This document shows, in pieces, positions 1 to 7,555 of a stretch of 7,555 nucleotides of DNA. Source of the stretch: Nitrospinota bacterium (GTDB lineage: Bacteria; Tectomicrobia; Entotheonellia; J063); NCBI GenBank assembly GCA_003696125.1, contig RFHZ01000798.1, positions 1-7,555 of the forward strand, in the 5' to 3' direction. Within the stretch, counting starts at the first letter, position 1. The number at the start of each line of letters is the position of its first letter. The notes beneath the pieces were generated by a model that searched no databases, was not told the origin of the DNA, and was given only the letters and a program-made list of their open reading frames with translations. A program made the translations under genes and the position numbers.

Positions 1-947
1 CCACTACACTTTTCCCCTTTTCCGGCCGCGCCTTCGCCGGCGGCGCCTTCGCCGGCGGCGCCCTCCCCGGCCGCGCCCTCACCACTGGCACCCAGGGTAT
101 CGTAGTTTCCGGCCGAGGCGATCAGGACCACACCGGCTTTGTGCAGTTGCTTGATGATCTGGTGGAGGAGAGGACTTCCCTGAGAGAAGCCCAGACTCAT
201 GTTGACCACCCGGATCTCGGGATGCTCGTATACCCAGCTCAACCCGTTGATCAGGTCGGAGAGGTATCCCCCTCCGTCATCGGCCAGTACCCGTACCGCA
301 TAGAGCTGGACCTGGGGAGCGATACCACGCATGACACGCCACTCATCCGGGGCACCGGCAGCAGCGGCAATGATCCCGGCGATATGGGTGCCGTGTCCGT
401 TGCGATCCAGGTAATCGTCCGGGTCCTCCCCGGCCCGGGCATTATATCCACCGATCACTGCACCGGCCAGATCAGGATGCTCCGGGTCGATACCGGTATC
501 GAGGACGGCAATCGTTACCCCCTGTCCCTGGATCACCGGATCGACTTCGTCGAGATAGATCTGGAGCAGGTTCCAGGTATAACCTCCCTCTACCGGCTCC
601 GGATCGACCGGGGTGATGAAGGTCCCTTCAAAGTGTCCCCGGCTCTGCGCAGTTATGGAGGTATCCGGCTCAACGGCGGCCACGGCTGGATGGGTACGGA
701 GTGCCTGGAGCGTGGCCTCAGGGTGATCGGCAGGCACCTGAATCACCAGGGCGTGGAGGAGGGGGAGTCGCTGGAGGATCGTGCCTCCACTGGTGGTCAC
801 GATCTCTTCCTGCAGCGTGACCGGTGTTTCGGGGGTAAAGGTCACGATGTGCCGCGTGGTCATTGCCCAGGCCGTGGTACTACCCAGGAGAAGGATGGTG
901 AGGAGAAGAAAGAGACAGCGTTTCCTTTGCGGTGGGTATGACTTCAT
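1..947 (-). CDS. Secreted subtilisin-like serine protease (peptidase S8), 3' end off the window
   Basis: The first 315 residues of an exported subtilase are visible. Residues 8-28 form a signal peptide (RKR, a Leu-rich core, then TTAWA before the likely cleavage site). Residues about 31-100 look like an I9-type inhibitory propeptide (RHIVTF near the start, AVAAVEPD near the end). The catalytic domain shows Asp150 in AVLDTGID, His185 in NGHGTHIAGI, the substrate-cleft NMSLG at 249-253 and the oxyanion Asn281 in ASAGN. The nucleophile Ser (GTSMA motif) should lie beyond the left edge, so activity cannot be confirmed. Residues 290-309 are four EGAAG repeats, followed by KGEKCS; most subtilases have a short loop here. 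The start is the ATG at 947, six bases after GGAGG. The gene is preceded by a sigma-28-type promoter and a c-di-GMP-I riboswitch. Expected role: extracellular or cell-surface protein degradation. The family call is firm; substrate and localisation are unknown. Confidence 0.93.
   Translation of the reverse strand, partial: MKSYPPQRKRCLFLLLTILLLGSTTAWAMTTRHIVTFTPETPVTLQEEIVTTSGGTILQRLPLLHALVIQVPADHPEATLQALRTHPAVAAVEPDTSITAQSRGHFEGTFITPVDPEPVEGGYTWNLLQIYLDEVDPVIQGQGVTIAVLDTGIDPEHPDLAGAVIGGYNARAGEDPDDYLDRNGHGTHIAGIIAAAAGAPDEWRVMRGIAPQVQLYAVRVLADDGGGYLSDLINGLSWVYEHPEIRVVNMSLGFSQGSPLLHQIIKQLHKAGVVLIASAGNYDTLGASGEGAAGEGAAGEGAAGEGAAGKGEKCS
21..80 (-). repeat. In-frame 15-bp tandem repeat, four copies, coding (EGAAG)4
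   Basis: Four consecutive 15-base units (pattern GAR GGC GCS GCC GGN) encode EGAAG four times inside the protease, starting nine residues after the oxyanion-hole Asn281. The units differ only at third codon positions, and a degenerate fifth unit (AAA GGG...) follows. The repeat is in frame, so changes in copy number would lengthen or shorten a loop without breaking the gene. Confidence 0.9.
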
Positions 948-948
948 T

Positions 949-1027
949 GAGCACCTCCCTTTTTCTGAGCCATGGACCCGCACGAAATGTCGCGCACCTG
1001 GCAGAGGTGCTCTGCGAAGCATTTCGT
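949..1027 (-). promoter_or_regulatory. Riboswitch expression platform with anti-Shine-Dalgarno
   Basis: The ribosome binding site GAGGTGCTC (957-949) is exactly complementary to GAGCACCTC at 1012-1004; a flanking G-U pair gives ten pairs. A competing hairpin hides that anti-SD: ACGAAATG (1027-1020) pairs with CATTTCGT (989-982), TCGC (1017-1014) with GCGA (993-990), and GCACCT (1010-1005) with AGGTGC (999-994). The outer arm of this hairpin shares ACGAA with the 3' strand of aptamer helix P1, so the two cannot form together. Inference: without ligand the hairpin holds the anti-SD and the gene is translated; with c-di-GMP bound, P1 forms, the anti-SD is freed and the ribosome site is masked. 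No U-run follows any hairpin here, so control is probably translational. Confidence 0.75.
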
Positions 1028-1116
1028 CCGGCAGCCCCGCTATCCCAAGGTGCCCAGGGCACCTTGGGACCGGAGGCTTTGCGTCCCAGTATTGCTACTG
1101 GTTTGCCCTTAACGAA
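1023..1116 (-). ncRNA. c-di-GMP-I (GEMM-I) riboswitch aptamer
   Basis: Read on the minus strand, the segment carries the GEMM-I landmarks in order: AGGGCAAACC (1109-1100), a stem CCAGTA/TACTGG closed by a GCAA (GNRA) tetraloop (1101-1086), GGGACGCAAAGCCTCCGG (1087-1070), then a P3 hairpin and TAGCGGGGCTGCCG (1042-1029). P1 is formed by TTCGTT (1116-1111) and GACGAA (1028-1023). The base three before AAACC (1107), matching position 20 of the Vc2 aptamer as I align it, is G. G there is typical of c-di-GMP binders, while the cGAMP-binding variants of Geobacter have A. The A that stacks between the ligand guanines in Vc2 (A47) corresponds to the first A of CGCAAAG (1080). The RNA lies in the 5' leader of the protease gene. 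Confidence 0.93.
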
Positions 1117-1142
1117 CGATGGACTCTTTCTGACTGTATCTC

Positions 1143-1169
1143 TTATCGGCCATTTGCCGCCAGAGTTTA
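1143..1169 (-). promoter_or_regulatory. Sigma-28 (FliA)-type promoter for the riboswitch-protease transcript
   Basis: The minus strand has TAAACTCT (1169-1162), exactly 11 bases, then GCCGATAA (1150-1143). The enterobacterial FliA consensus is TAAAGTTT-N11-GCCGATAA, so the -10 element is a perfect match and the -35 core TAAA is intact. Transcription should begin near 1135, giving a leader of about 188 bases that starts some 20 bases before the aptamer. The site is only ten bases beyond the stop codon of the preceding gene, and no intrinsic terminator separates them, so read-through from upstream may add to expression. Confidence 0.8.
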
Positions 1170-1178
1170 GGAAAAATT

Positions 1179-2846
1179 TTACCTGATATCTTTTTCTCCC
1201 CTCCTGGCCTGCTGGTCCTTGGGGCGTTCCAGCCAGATCTTCTTCATCGGGATGTACGGTGCTCCCAGGGAGTTGATCTCGACTCCACGTACATACGGCT
1301 GGTAGAGGAACTCAAAGACCTTGTGGTGCTGGCTGATCCAGGGAGCATCGTTTACCACAAGCTGCTCCATGGTGCGATACAGTTGGACCCGTCGCAGGTA
1401 GTCGGTCTCGCGGCGCGCTTCCTCCATGAACTGATCCACCTGGGGATTGTGGTAGAAGGTGCGGTTGGTCTTGCTCTGGGAGTAGAGAAGCGGGAAGAAG
1501 AAGTTGTCCGGGTCGGGAATGTCCGCGTACCAGGCCAGGCGGAACATGGAAGGCTGGCCGGCCTGGAGCATCTTCTTAAAGGTCTTCCAGTTAGGGGCTT
1601 GATGGATCTCCACCCTGACCCCGATATCGGCCAGGTACTGGCGATACGCCTCCAGTTCTGCACGGGCACTCTTCTCATGCGTGGCAAACCAGAGATCGAT
1701 GACCGGCAGGCCTTCTCCGTTGGGGTACCCGGCCTCGGCCAGCAGCTGCCTGGCCCGTTTGGGGTTGTAATAGTAGGCCTGCAGATTCGGGTTGTAGCCG
1801 GGCATGCCAGGGGGGAGAACCCCTTTGGCCACCACGCTTCCCCCCTTTCTGATCTCCCGGATGATCTCCTCCATGTTGATGGCATAGTTGAAGGCCTGGC
1901 GCACTTTGGGATTGGTGAAGGGGGCTTTGCGGTTGTTAAACCCGATGTAGAGGAGGTGAAGGGTCGGTTTGCGCAGGTGCAGGTAAGAGCGATAACGCGG
2001 GTTCCGGTTGATCTCTTCCCGCTTCATGCTCGGAACCGCCGCCTCTTCCAGGTTTCCCCGCAGGAATTCGTCCAGGTTCTCCACATCCTGCTTGCCGATC
2101 TTGAAGACCACCTGGTCGAGGAAGGGGCGTCCTTCGTAATACTTCTCATAGGCCTGCAGCACGATCTGCTCATTCTGATCCCAGCGCACAAAGCGAAACG
2201 GACCGCTGCCCACCGGCTGGGAGGCAAACCGCTCTCCCAGGCGTTCCACCTCTTCCCGGGGTACCACCTTGGCGTTGGCCATGGCCAGGATGGAGAGGAA
2301 GGGGGTGTACGGTTCCTCCAGGGTGATCTGCAGGGTATAGGGGTCGAGCGCTTTTAACCCCTCTACCCGCGAGGTCTTTCCTGCCATGACCTCCTCGGCT
2401 CCCTTGATGTACTGGAAGAACTCGGCCACCGGAGACCTGGTTTCCGGTTGCAGGATACGGGAGAGGGAGTAGACAAAGTCGTCGGCCGTGATGCCGCGGC
2501 CGTTGTGGAACTTTGCATCCTTCCGCAGGTAAAAGGTCCAGGTGAGCCCGTCCACCGAGGCCTCCCAGAACCCGGCAATGGCCGGAACAGGGTTGAGGTG
2601 ACTGTCGAACTGCACCAGGCCATCGAAGAGCTGATTCACCACCGTATAGGCGTAGATATCTGCGGTACGGGCCGGATCGAGAGAGGGCGGGTTGTTGTTG
2701 AGGGGACGCCGGTACACGCCGCCAAACTGGGAGGAGGGATTATTCCCTCCCGGAACGATCCCTGCCTCTGCCGGGAGCGCAAAGATGAGGAGTCCCAACA
2801 ACACTACCGATACGTAAACCAGGATGCGATAGCGGTCTTTAAGCAT
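1179..2846 (-). CDS. ABC transporter substrate-binding protein, family 5 (peptide/oligopeptide type), copy 2
   Basis: A 555-residue periplasmic solute-binding protein of the SBP_bac_5 (DppA/OppA) family, usual size for the group. Residues 8-24 are a hydrophobic signal core with likely cleavage after AEA at 26-28; there is no lipobox Cys. The family signature spans residues about 90-128: AIAGFWEAS, then DGLTWTFYLRKDAKFHNG, then ITADDFVYS. The start is the ATG at 2846, six bases after AAGGAGG. It lies 32 bases downstream of a close paralogue and is very probably co-transcribed with it. Neither protein has permease or ATPase genes beside it in this window, so it either serves a transporter encoded elsewhere or has a sensing role. 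The ligand is most likely peptides, judged by family only; other family 5 members bind nickel, haem, bile salts or sugars. Confidence 0.93.
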   Translation of the reverse strand: MLKDRYRILVYVSVVLLGLLIFALPAEAGIVPGGNNPSSQFGGVYRRPLNNNPPSLDPARTADIYAYTVVNQLFDGLVQFDSHLNPVPAIAGFWEASVDGLTWTFYLRKDAKFHNGRGITADDFVYSLSRILQPETRSPVAEFFQYIKGAEEVMAGKTSRVEGLKALDPYTLQITLEEPYTPFLSILAMANAKVVPREEVERLGERFASQPVGSGPFRFVRWDQNEQIVLQAYEKYYEGRPFLDQVVFKIGKQDVENLDEFLRGNLEEAAVPSMKREEINRNPRYRSYLHLRKPTLHLLYIGFNNRKAPFTNPKVRQAFNYAINMEEIIREIRKGGSVVAKGVLPPGMPGYNPNLQAYYYNPKRARQLLAEAGYPNGEGLPVIDLWFATHEKSARAELEAYRQYLADIGVRVEIHQAPNWKTFKKMLQAGQPSMFRLAWYADIPDPDNFFFPLLYSQSKTNRTFYHNPQVDQFMEEARRETDYLRRVQLYRTMEQLVVNDAPWISQHHKVFEFLYQPYVRGVEINSLGAPYIPMKKIWLERPKDQQARRGEKDIR

Positions 2847-2878: not shown

Positions 2879-4540
2879 TTAATCGACTCTTTGGGCCTGC
2901 TGAGCCCCTGGTCGTTTCAGCCAGATCTTCTTCATCGGGATATAGTGGGTACCGAGGGAATTGACTTCGATCCCCCGCACGTAAGGCTGATAGAGGTATT
3001 CAAAGACCTTGTGGTGCTGGCTGATCCAGGGAGCATCCTCCATGGCCAGTTTTTCTACCTTGCGATAGATGGCGATACGCTGGAGAAAATCGGTCTCCTG
3101 TCGTGCCTCCTGGAGTAAGCGATCCACCTGGGGATTGTGATAGAAGGTGCGGTTGGTCTTGCTCTGAGAGTAGAGAAGCGGGAAGAAGAAGTTGTCCGGG
3201 TCCGGGATGTCCGCGTACCAGGCCAGGCGGAACATGGAGGGTTTGCCGGCCTGGAGCATCTTCTTGAAGGTCGGCCAGTTGGGGGCACGGTGAATTTCCA
3301 GGGTGACCCCGATGTCGGCCAGGTATTTTTGGTACGCCTCCATCTCTTTGCGCGTGGTCTCCTCTTTGGAATTGGTCCAGATGTCGATGACCGGGAGACC
3401 TTTTCCCCCGGGATAGCCGGCTTCGGCCAGGAGTTGTCGGGCACGTTCCGGGCTATAATAGTAGTATCCTTCCGGATCGATGCTGTACCCCGGTATGGGA
3501 GGCAGAATGGCATGGGCAACGATATCACCCCGTTTCCTGATCTCCCGCACGATCACCTCTTTGTTGACCGCATAGTTGAAGGCCTGGCGTACTTTCGGGT
3601 TGGTGAACGGTTCTTTCCGGGTGTTGAAGCCGATGTAGAGCAGATGAAGGATGGGACGGCGAATGTGGAGGTAATCCCGATAGCGAGGATCGGTGCGCAC
3701 TTCTGCCCTCTTGCTGGCCGGTACCTTGGCCTCTTCCAGGGTACCGTGCAGGAAATCGGTAAAGTTGTCCAGATCCTTTTTCCCGATCTTGAATATGATC
3801 TGGTCGAGGAAGGGACGCCCCTCGTAGTAGTCCGGGTAGGCCTGCAGCACGATTTCCCGATTCTGATCCCAGCGCACAAAGCGGAACGGCCCGCTCCCCA
3901 CCGGATGCGTGGCAAATTCTGCCCCCGGCTTTTCCACCTCTTCCCGGGGCACCACCTTGGCGTTAGCCATGGCCAGGACGGAGAGGAAAGGAGCGTACGG
4001 TTCCTGCAAGGTGACCTGCAAGGTATACGGGTCCAGGGCCTTCAGTCCTTTCACTACCGGTGCTTTCCCCTTGTGAAATTCCTCGGCCCCGTCGATGTTC
4101 ATGAAGAATTCGGCTACCGGAGACTGGAGCGCCGGATCGAGGATGCGGGTAAAGGAGTAGACAAAATCGTCCGCGGTGACCGGCCGGCCATTGTGGAAGG
4201 TCACCCCTTTGCGCAGATAGAAGGTCCAGGTTAAGCCATCCGGCGAGGCTTCCCAAAATTCGGCGATGGCCGGTCGCAGGTTGAGCTGGACGTCGAACTG
4301 GAGGAGACCATCGAAGACCTGGTTTACCACGGTGTTGGCGTGCACATCCGAGGTGCGGGCCGGATCGAGAGAAGAGGGGTTGTCGCTGAGTGGACGCCGG
4401 TATACTCCCCCATAGCGCTCAACACCGTTCCGCTGCCCAGATGACATCTCTGCGCTCGCCGGCGCCAGCCCCCAGAGGAGTATGCTGAGTGCTGCCAGAA
4501 GTAAACCCAGGCTTCTCCATGGATTGACGCGTTTTCTCAT
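2879..4540 (-). CDS. ABC transporter substrate-binding protein, family 5 (peptide/oligopeptide type), copy 1
   Basis: A 553-residue paralogue of the next gene, first of the tandem pair. Signal peptide: MRKRVNPWR, hydrophobic core at about 11-25, cleavage after ASA at 28-30; no lipobox Cys. The family 5 signature runs from AIAEFWEAS (91-99) to VTADDFVYS. The long block FKKMLQAG to NPQVD is almost identical to copy 2, whereas the signal peptide and the segments around LPPIPGY and WTNSKEETTRK differ, which may mean different ligand preference. I chose the ATG at 4540, preceded by GAGGAGG ten bases upstream; a GTG at 4543 sits seven bases from the same site and is equally possible. The in-frame ATG at 4597 lacks a ribosome binding site and would put 19 odd residues in front of the signal peptide, so I rejected it. 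Role: capture of peptides or a similar solute in the periplasm. Confidence 0.92.
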   Translation of the reverse strand: MRKRVNPWRSLGLLLAALSILLWGLAPASAEMSSGQRNGVERYGGVYRRPLSDNPSSLDPARTSDVHANTVVNQVFDGLLQFDVQLNLRPAIAEFWEASPDGLTWTFYLRKGVTFHNGRPVTADDFVYSFTRILDPALQSPVAEFFMNIDGAEEFHKGKAPVVKGLKALDPYTLQVTLQEPYAPFLSVLAMANAKVVPREEVEKPGAEFATHPVGSGPFRFVRWDQNREIVLQAYPDYYEGRPFLDQIIFKIGKKDLDNFTDFLHGTLEEAKVPASKRAEVRTDPRYRDYLHIRRPILHLLYIGFNTRKEPFTNPKVRQAFNYAVNKEVIVREIRKRGDIVAHAILPPIPGYSIDPEGYYYYSPERARQLLAEAGYPGGKGLPVIDIWTNSKEETTRKEMEAYQKYLADIGVTLEIHRAPNWPTFKKMLQAGKPSMFRLAWYADIPDPDNFFFPLLYSQSKTNRTFYHNPQVDRLLQEARQETDFLQRIAIYRKVEKLAMEDAPWISQHHKVFEYLYQPYVRGIEVNSLGTHYIPMKKIWLKRPGAQQAQRVD

Positions 4541-4580: not shown

Positions 4581-4608
4581 CCCCGCTCTCCAAACATAGA
4601 GAGCAGGG
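4581..4608 (-). other. Leader hairpin, strand of action unclear
   Basis: Minus-strand CCCTGCTCTC (4608-4599) pairs with GAGAGCGGGG (4590-4581) around an 8-base loop: ten pairs including one U-G. It would lie in the 5' leader of the binding-protein operon. Read on the plus strand, the same hairpin (with a C-A mismatch instead of the wobble) is followed by a run of seven T at 4610-4616, like a rho-independent terminator. No plus-strand gene exists to be terminated; it could stop antisense transcription leaving the operon. Confidence 0.5.
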
Positions 4609-5254: not shown

Positions 5255-5287
5255 ACCGGGTTAAGAGGATCGAAGAGCCGACCCGGT
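5255..5287 (-). other. Intercistronic inverted repeat
   Basis: ACCGGGT (5287-5281) and ACCCGGT (5261-5255) are perfect 7-base arms separated by 19 bases, lying between the two signalling genes and touching the TGA of the first. It has no T-run. It could be a weak intercistronic hairpin affecting coupling or mRNA decay, or a dyad operator. Confidence 0.35.
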
Positions 5288-7555
5288 CAGTCTTTAAGGG
5301 CGTACCGCTTTTCGCAACGCCGCCAGATCTCGGCGGTGAGGAAGATTTCGACCACCTGGGGATCGAAGTGGATGCCGGATAAGGACCGGATGTAGGTACA
5401 GGCCTCTTCCTCTGACCAGGCCTTACGGTAGGGGCGATCAGAACGGAGGGCATCCCAGACATCGGCAACGGCAAAGATGCGGGCGGCAAAGGGGATATCT
5501 TCTCCCTTCAATCCCCGGGGATACCCGCTCCCATCCCATTTCTCATGGTGGTAGTGGGGGATGTCGAGGGCGGGACGGAGATAGGGGATCGGCGAGAGCA
5601 TCTCGTAGGCATATACCGGATGCTGGCGCATGATCTTCCACTCTTCTGCACTCAGGGGACCGGGCTTGCGGAGGATATGATCCGGGATCCCCATCTTGCC
5701 GATGTCATGCAGCAGGGCTCCACGACGGATGTGGATCAGTTCCCCGTTGTTTATGCCCATGGCCCGGGCCAGATGGATGGTCAGATCGGTGACCCGCTGG
5801 GTGTGGCCCTCGGTCTCCTGGTCGCGCAGGTCGAGGGCACGCGACCACCCTTCCAGCGTGCTGTCGTAAGCCAGGACCAGCTCCAGATTGGAGCGCTGGA
5901 GCTCGTCAAACAGGGTGGCATTGTCGATGGCGATGGCAGCCTGGGCAGACAGGGCTTCCAGGAAGTTTAACCACTCCGGTTCCGGTTCGAGTAACGTGCG
6001 ATGGAAGATCTCCATGACCCCCTTGATCTGGCCTTTGGCCAGGAGAGGGACGGCATAGTAGGAGACGAACGACTCCTGGGCGGCGATCTTCTGGAGGAGG
6101 GGGTCTGGACCGATCTGGAGATCAGGAATAAAGATGGTGCGGCGTTCCAGTGCAGCCTGTCCCGCTGTCCCTTCTCCCAGGCGCAGGCGGGAAGGGAGAG
6201 AGTTTCGGGACTGGAAGCCGCGTCCGGTAGCATGTTCGAGGGTCTGGGTGTGGGGATCAAGGAGCAGGATATCGGCGGCATCGAGATGGAGCTGGGCGGT
6301 GAGCTGGTCGAGGAAGACGTTGAGGGTAACCCGCAGGTCCAGGCTGGCGGTGATGGCCATGTCGATGTTGCGAAGGGCGTTCAACCGCTGCAGGCGTTGC
6401 TGGGTCTGTTCGTAGAGGGTGGCCCGGTGCAGGGCATTGGCCGCCACGTTGCCGATGGTGGTGAGCAGGTGGACCTCATCTGGGGTGATCGGGGTTTTCC
6501 GGCCGACCCACAGGGCACCGATGGTCTGGTTATGTTCGACCAGCGGGACACAGGCGACCGCCCGGCAACCGTTGGGGCCATCGTAGGTAAAGTGCGGGTC
6601 TTCGTATACGTTGTGGTGCACATAAGCCTGACCGGTGGCGATGACGTGTCCACTGATCCCCTCTCCCACGGCCAGCCGTTTCCCGGTCCAGCAGGACCAT
6701 TTTCCACCGGCCAGCTCGATCACCGCCTCCCCGCTCCCCGGCTTCTGCATGACCAGGGCAGCCCCCTCGGCCTTCAGCAGGTGCAGCAGTTGCTCCAGAA
6801 TCACCACCTCCATCTCGGTCCGGCTGGAAGCGGTACAGAGGGCTTTGGTCACGGTAACCAGACTCTCTAATTCCTGTTCCCGCTGCTTGCGGCTGGTCAT
6901 GTCCCGGAAGACGGCGACTCCCCCCTGCGGTCTCCCCGCGTCATCGGTCAGGGGACGGGCGGTGACACTGAGCCACAGCCCGTCCGGTACCTGCTTATGC
7001 CGGACAAACATCTCCGCGGCATCGACCGCTTCCCCTTGCATCGCCCGTACCAGGGGATGCTCCTCGATGGGATACGGGGTAAGGGTATCGGGAAGATAGA
7101 GTCCGGAGCGATCCGGCCACTCCTCCAGAGGGAGATCGGTAGTCTCAAGGTTGAGAAACCGCTCTGCGGCCGGATTGCAAAAGGAGATCCTGCCCTGGGC
7201 ATCGACGATGACCAGGCCATCTCCCATGCTCTCCTGTAAGATCCTGGTCTGCCGGCGCAAGGCCTGCTCGGAACGGGCCAGGGCCTGGGCCCGCTCTTCC
7301 AGTTCTGCCGTGTACCGCCTGACCTCTCGCTGCAACTGAATCTTCTCCAGCGCCCTTTTTACCGATGCCTCCAGCATCTCCACATCAAAAGGCTTGGCAA
7401 TGTAGTCGTAAGCACCACGCCGGATGGCCTCTATGGCCGATTCGGTGGAGGCATAGCCGGTGATGACGATGACCAGGGTCTCTGGAGTATGGGTACTGAT
7501 GTGGTTCATCACATCAAAACCGCTCACGGCACCCATCATGATGTCGGTGATCACC
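5287..7555 (-). CDS. REC-PAS-GAF-GAF-HD-GYP c-di-GMP phosphodiesterase-type protein, 5' end off the window
   Basis: The last 755 residues are visible. The first codon in frame (GTG, 7554) is Val of VITDIMMG, the phospho-Asp strand of a receiver, so it is not a start and the first half of that domain lies outside. Numbering from there: receiver to about 68 (Asp4, Thr32, Lys54 in AKPFDV); a charged helix at 69-105; PAS at about 105-225 (DGLVIVDAQGRISFCNPAAE); GAF at about 232-380; second GAF at about 396-548; HD-GYP at about 565-750. The HD-GYP core is complete: H584, LLHDIGK (H616, D617, K620), H645, HHEKWDGSGYP (H669, H670, E671, GYP at 677-679) and D698 in VADVWD. Family members hydrolyse c-di-GMP to pGpG or GMP using a metal cluster. 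Here activity is likely gated by phosphorylation and small-molecule or redox signals through PAS/GAF. No GGDEF domain is seen. The c-di-GMP riboswitch lies about 4 kb downstream. Confidence 0.95.
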   Translation of the reverse strand, partial: VITDIMMGAVSGFDVMNHISTHTPETLVIVITGYASTESAIEAIRRGAYDYIAKPFDVEMLEASVKRALEKIQLQREVRRYTAELEERAQALARSEQALRRQTRILQESMGDGLVIVDAQGRISFCNPAAERFLNLETTDLPLEEWPDRSGLYLPDTLTPYPIEEHPLVRAMQGEAVDAAEMFVRHKQVPDGLWLSVTARPLTDDAGRPQGGVAVFRDMTSRKQREQELESLVTVTKALCTASSRTEMEVVILEQLLHLLKAEGAALVMQKPGSGEAVIELAGGKWSCWTGKRLAVGEGISGHVIATGQAYVHHNVYEDPHFTYDGPNGCRAVACVPLVEHNQTIGALWVGRKTPITPDEVHLLTTIGNVAANALHRATLYEQTQQRLQRLNALRNIDMAITASLDLRVTLNVFLDQLTAQLHLDAADILLLDPHTQTLEHATGRGFQSRNSLPSRLRLGEGTAGQAALERRTIFIPDLQIGPDPLLQKIAAQESFVSYYAVPLLAKGQIKGVMEIFHRTLLEPEPEWLNFLEALSAQAAIAIDNATLFDELQRSNLELVLAYDSTLEGWSRALDLRDQETEGHTQRVTDLTIHLARAMGINNGELIHIRRGALLHDIGKMGIPDHILRKPGPLSAEEWKIMRQHPVYAYEMLSPIPYLRPALDIPHYHHEKWDGSGYPRGLKGEDIPFAARIFAVADVWDALRSDRPYRKAWSEEEACTYIRSLSGIHFDPQVVEIFLTAEIWRRCEKRYALKD

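Follow-up and report, generated by a model that had tools for sequence, protein, structure and literature searches.

The locus studied here raises the question of why the gene of a secreted protease should carry, in one and the same leader, a flagellar promoter and a c-di-GMP riboswitch, and of when a cell with such a leader would make the protease. The window analyzed, 7,555 nt in length, is an entire contig (C192) of a metagenome-assembled genome (MAG) of 4.18 Mb in 990 contigs, with 8% contamination. A first-pass annotation had described a FliA promoter, an aptamer and a platform in tandem before a signal-peptide-bearing S8 protease, without giving a polarity for the switch, and each of these elements proved to be real by independent tests. 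Our main reading, to which we assign a probability of about 0.7, is that the leader acts as a two-input AND gate on the secreted subtilase, formed by the FliA promoter and a c-di-GMP OFF switch.

The target gene and its neighborhood

The protein-coding features of the contig that matter here are the following.

3 to 947, minus strand: secreted S8 subtilase (Pfam PF00082, E 1.5e-31; PF22148, 8.3e-5)
1179 to 2846, minus strand: OppA/DppA-like oligopeptide-binding protein (PF00496, E 4e-96; best NCBIfam match OppA, below cut-off)
2879 to 4537, minus strand: second OppA/DppA-like substrate-binding protein (PF00496, E 1.4e-98)
5287 to 7554, minus strand: response regulator-PAS-GAF-HD-GYP-type protein, candidate c-di-GMP phosphodiesterase (PF13487, E 2.1e-41; HD and GYP motifs in the translation)

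Based on Pfam and the translation, the subtilase consists of a signal peptide (947 to 864, MKSYPPQRKRCLFLLLTILLLGSTTAWA), a fervidolysin-like prodomain and the subtilase domain. The hydrophobic N-terminus of the translated ORF, together with the S8 domain, identifies it as a secreted S8 protease. The start codon is at 947, which corrects an earlier reading; an in-frame ATG at 1022 was discarded as the start, as it has no Shine-Dalgarno (SD) sequence and would add 25 residues ahead of the signal peptide. A motif scan found the Asp and the His of the catalytic triad (DTG and HGTH). The Ser is located beyond the contig end, since the contig stops within a GEGAA repeat directly past the SAGN motif; several paralogues read GTSQ in the same kind of scan. 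Ten S8 matches are listed in the genome, part of them fragments, and a search of the genome contigs collection confirmed no close relatives of the window subtilase. In the subtilases of this class, the S[AV]GN oxyanion motif is followed immediately by a short tandem repeat of the type (SEGGD)n, (GEGAA)n or (SGGDD)n (seen at window 1 to 80 and at L063, L064, L065 and L022), and the unit and length of the repeat vary among paralogues. Two of these loci, L064 and L065 (contigs C231 and C200), are tandem arrays of subtilase paralogues.

Both genes for OppA/DppA-like proteins are upstream of the subtilase. In G004, a genome of the same class, a subtilase 42% identical to that of the window (L022) is followed by a homologue of the binding protein (51% identical), so the protease/peptide-binding neighborhood probably predates this genome. 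The riboswitch is absent both there and at the other subtilase paralogues, and this absence counts against the main reading. On the plus strand, upstream of the gene for the second binding protein, a stem-loop followed by a T run is present at 4585 to 4604; an NsiR1 match below threshold covers it.

An exact sigma-28 site in a flagellated host

1143 to 1169, minus strand: sigma-28 (FliA) promoter, with -35 TAAA(CTCT) at 1169 to 1162 and -10 GCCGATAA at 1150 to 1143

The promoter at 1169 to 1143 had been annotated as near-consensus, but its core is in fact exact in 12 of 12 bases: the minus strand reads TAAACTCT-N11-GCCGATAA, that is, TAAA-N15-GCCGATAA. From its position, transcription is predicted to start near 1138 to 1135, and 26 nt separate the end of the -10 element from the start of the aptamer. 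No sigma-70 promoter was found in the leader. FliA is encoded in the genome (C729; 283.5 bits versus a cut-off of 189.6), in a gene that adjoins ORFs read as FlhA, FlhF and FlhG from their translations. Flagellin and five GGDEF proteins are also encoded, and the gene of the HD-GYP-type protein shares its contig with the subtilase gene.

Exact sites are rare in this genome. The exact TAAA-N15-GCCGATAA pattern has four sites in the whole 4.18 Mb, and the reversed-pattern control has none, with a chance expectation (4^-12, both strands) of about 0.5 exact sites per spacing per genome. Sites with one mismatch also exceeded their controls (23 versus 7 and 32 versus 7). One exact site (C742:6063-6037) lies ahead of a receiver-SpoIIE gene that belongs to a cluster whose last gene encodes flagellin; the Mot-like and STAS-like members of this cluster were assigned by reading translations. 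When both spacings (N15 or N16) are considered, two of the eight exact sites precede secreted subtilases. The second of these belongs to the nearest paralogue of the window subtilase (C692, 61% identical), which has an exact TAAA-N16-GCCGATAA 98 nt before its ATG and is without a GEMM. Ahead of two M6-family secreted metalloproteases of the same genome (L138 and L145), we observed FliA sites with one mismatch, a quality at which single sites are uncertain.

We consider it unlikely that the riboswitch is functional and the FliA-like site a chance match, with transcription coming from the upstream peptide-binding-protein operon or from another promoter. The upstream gene does end ca. 10 bp before the site, with no strong terminator found between them, and the CTCT after TAAA is not T-rich, unlike at the flagellar-cluster site. 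However, a chance match would have to be correct in every core base, to stand at a suitable distance from the aptamer and to fall, in a genome with so few exact sites expected, less than 60 nt from the single riboswitch found there, and the closest subtilase paralogue has an exact FliA site of its own. Besides, the stacking of FliA sites and GEMM aptamers occurs elsewhere (see below).

A canonical c-di-GMP-I aptamer

1026 to 1116, minus strand: c-di-GMP-I (GEMM-I) riboswitch aptamer (RF03167, 68.1 bits, gathering threshold 59, E 6.5e-15)

A second model, RF01051, matches 1117 to 1027 with 71.7 bits (gathering threshold 35, E 6.6e-14 per genome), so both models exceed their curated thresholds in the covariance search that the first-pass annotation had named as a check. 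The aptamer that it had placed at 1116 to 1023 is thus real, but it ends at 1026/1027 instead of 1023. No other RNA family was called with confidence by cmscan in the window, and no second GEMM was found in the 4.18 Mb genome. The 'GGC' variant label of RF03167 was rejected as evidence of a distinct ligand: with A at the A47-equivalent and 71.7 bits from the ordinary RF01051 model, we treat the aptamer as a canonical c-di-GMP-I.

In the Rfam alignment, the putative ligand-contacting positions, which we take to be the equivalents of G20, A47 and C92 in Vc2 numbering, carry G, A and C, as is canonical for c-di-GMP. This composition argues against an aptamer for 3',3'-cGAMP, or a relaxed cyclic-dinucleotide sensor, in place of one for c-di-GMP. 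We regard such a specificity as highly improbable, even if cGAMP is a ligand of a class I GEMM aptamer with G20A (PMC6274999) and the G20-equivalent is a factor of selectivity rather than a hard filter (PMC9262584).

Two predicted, mutually exclusive helix pairs in the expression platform

1113 to 1119, minus strand: P1 5' strand, UCGUUCG (predicted fold)
1024 to 1030, minus strand: P1 3' strand, CGGACGA (predicted fold), overlapping the anti-P1 5' arm
1020 to 1027, minus strand: anti-P1 5' arm, ACGAAAUG, 8-bp perfect complement of 989 to 982
982 to 989, minus strand: anti-P1 3' arm, CAUUUCGU, pairing with 1027 to 1020 (shuffle test)
1003 to 1012, minus strand: anti-Shine-Dalgarno (anti-SD), GAGCACCUCU, 10 bp with 958 to 949, one of them G-U (shuffle test)
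949 to 958, minus strand: Shine-Dalgarno region, GGAGGUGCUC (sequence; forced folds)

According to the predicted folds, P1/anti-P1 and anti-SD/SD are two mutually exclusive helix pairs. In the alternative fold, the anti-P1 hairpin encloses the anti-SD, and inside it GCACCU (1010 to 1005) pairs with AGGUGC (999 to 994). A ribosome-site-masking platform at 1027 to 949 had been proposed before, and the shuffle test bears it out: among 3000 dinucleotide shuffles of the 60-nt linker, a helix with the P1 arm was obtained in 40, an anti-SD helix in 17 and both together in none. The fold of the whole leader has a z of -4.9, much of it coming from the aptamer.

The state with P1 formed and the SD masked (-92.3 kcal/mol, versus -89.8 for the anti-P1 state) is the minimum free energy (MFE) fold without ligand; prior to SD synthesis, the transcript has the anti-P1 hairpin as its MFE fold. 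Because masking is favored also when no ligand is bound, reaching the ON state requires co-transcriptional folding. In forced folds, the SD of the window is masked with P1 and unpaired at ca. 0.45 with anti-P1, and in the masked fold the pairs that flank the SD helix extend to the start codon. No intrinsic terminator was found on the minus strand from 1143 to 947, and therefore we prefer translational control. Since the ligand would stabilize P1 and thereby push the RNA to the SD-masked state, the platform is predicted to be a translational OFF switch under c-di-GMP, a polarity that fits a motility promoter. This polarity is only a prediction, because the gap of 2.5 kcal/mol between the two states is within model error.

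Leaders with the same layout in other genomes

G001, which represents a second family of the class, shares this platform layout, there located behind a GEMM and ahead of the gene of an unrelated secreted protein. There, the anti-SD/SD helix has 15 bp and the anti-P1 helix 10 bp; the letters differ and the pairing is kept, and none of 3000 shuffles matched the anti-SD helix taken by itself. At this locus (L008, G001:C12), the platform motif reads ACGAAATGCTTCGC...GCATTTCG, and a GCCGATAA located ca. 150 nt upstream has no clear -35 element.

Among the Nitrospirota, the order FliA site, GEMM, S8 subtilase is found at L107/L050, with an exact TAAA-N15-GCCGATAA, and at L116, with a FliA site of one mismatch and a subtilase 72% identical to that of L050. 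L124 has a GEMM and an S8 subtilase (68%), and the scan recognized no FliA site there. The leaders of L107, L116 and L124 have a platform layout similar to that of the window. No match to a FliA gene was found in the L050/L107 genome, where ordinary sigma-70 relatives were not found either, so this bin is likely incomplete. The Nitrospirota subtilase and that of the window are only 33% identical (over 168 residues), and for that reason convergence appears likelier than recent transfer.

Together with the window and G001, these make five leaders in which both helices could be forced. With P1 forced, the SD was masked in all five (unpaired 0.00 to 0.17). With anti-P1 forced, the SD was clearly opened in three of the five, with unpaired values of 0.45 in the window, 0.41 in G001 and 0.70 in L116, while L107 (0.16) and L124 (0.00) stayed closed. 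Over the whole set, the opening is modest, which counts against the main reading. These results bear on the opposite polarity, in which c-di-GMP would turn translation on and the protease would serve the attached or dispersal state, FliA only supplying the transcript. GEMM-I ON switches exist, as seen in the comparison of pilM with Cd1 (PMC9262584), and the energy gap between the two folds of the window is small, but P1, the helix stabilized by ligand, coincided with a masked SD in every leader when forced. In addition, since the P1 3' strand shares bases with the anti-P1 arm, ligand binding and the SD-free state exclude each other. Altogether, we judge the ON polarity improbable and retain the OFF switch.

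Proposed mechanism

Once the flagellar regulon is on, RNA polymerase with FliA would start the mRNA near 1138 to 1135 (the site is exact, its use presumed), and the nascent RNA would bear the c-di-GMP-I aptamer detected by covariance. At low c-di-GMP, the anti-P1 hairpin would capture the P1 3' arm and bury the anti-SD, leaving the ribosome site open, and the protease would be made. At high c-di-GMP, the ligand would hold P1, the anti-P1 hairpin would be blocked, and the freed anti-SD would pair with the SD over 10 bp. This pairing, together with the flanking pairs up to the start codon, is predicted from the folds and the comparative structure to stop translation. Thus, swimming cells with low c-di-GMP would secrete the protease, and the neighboring oligopeptide-binding proteins plausibly import its products.

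Judging from the sequence, the protease of this uncultured flagellated bacterium is probably made only during swimming. We infer a tie between motility and proteolysis, for which sequence support is good. If true, extracellular proteolysis would join the motility program via two independent readings of one and the same lifestyle decision, with sigma-28 acting at the promoter and c-di-GMP on translation, and surface attachment would halt protease synthesis at once although FliA transcripts persist. More tentatively, and somewhat below even odds in our estimate, the FliA promoter, the c-di-GMP-I OFF platform and the secreted S8 protease may form a 'forage while swimming' module that recurs and was assembled by convergence. 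In the phylum of the window, this module would belong to a broader FliA regulon for secreted proteases, with two S8 that have exact sites and two M6 that have one-mismatch sites.

Relation to known systems

Each single part belongs to a known kind. In the sections of the reports on which this comparison is based (PMC6366702, PMC3649979), the c-di-GMP-I riboswitch Cdi1_12 of C. difficile is an OFF switch of zmpI/PPEP-1 (CD2830) by premature transcription termination. It shares with the window a class I aptamer, an OFF output (predicted in the window) and a secreted protease as the target, but it acts by termination, its target is a metalloprotease instead of an S8 protease, and the same sections describe no flagellar-sigma promoter for it. 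Also in C. difficile, Cd1 (Cdi1_3) is presented in that part of PMC6366702 as a class I OFF switch of the flgB operon that links c-di-GMP to motility; it is upstream of sigD and acts by termination, whereas the riboswitch of the window is downstream of a FliA promoter and is predicted to be translational. Regarding Bdellovibrio, the pertinent section of PMC3627812 indicates that proteases are among the attack-phase genes that FliA appears to drive and that merRNA, a c-di-GMP riboswitch RNA, reaches massive expression levels in the attack phase. FliA, proteases and a c-di-GMP riboswitch RNA expressed in one phase are a likeness to the window; unlike the riboswitch of the window, merRNA, as described in that section, has no conserved ORF downstream and is not placed ahead of a protease.

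The novelty resides in the addition of a FliA promoter, in the S8 target and in the recurrence across phyla, a combination that we did not find described. The literature searched, with subscription literature outside its scope, gave no description of a c-di-GMP riboswitch joined with a subtilisin, an absence that is weak evidence.

FliA-GEMM leaders across species genomes

A survey of 85k species genomes for GCCGATAA located 15 to 45 nt before a GEMM core yielded 28 loci. At 18 of them, TAAA and the -10 element were separated by exactly 15 or 16 nt, versus three occurrences of TAAA over all 25 other spacings, although the 18 loci are not as many independent events, because some are near copies. 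Like the window, these leaders have GCCGATAA and TAAA at N15/N16 just upstream of a class I aptamer; unlike it, they mainly have flagellar or pilus genes downstream. The genes encode FlgM (L044 and L060 by Pfam, L053 and L058 by likeness), FlgE/F/G (L046 and L062), a FliL-domain protein (L041), type IV pilins (L038, L051, L056 and L061) and an S8 protease (L050). A GEMM ahead of FlgM, the anti-sigma-28, would, if true, let c-di-GMP act on FliA feedback at the four FlgM loci. More generally, this catalogue (FlgM, hook, pilin and S8, in several phyla) makes it testable why a c-di-GMP switch is found on a FliA-controlled gene. Two Thermoleophilia loci (L049 and L057) were rejected as FliA examples since they have no TAAA at the right spacing, and they count only as GEMM plus S8. 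Several of the delta-proteobacterial FliA-GEMM leaders resemble terminators, not SD-masking platforms.
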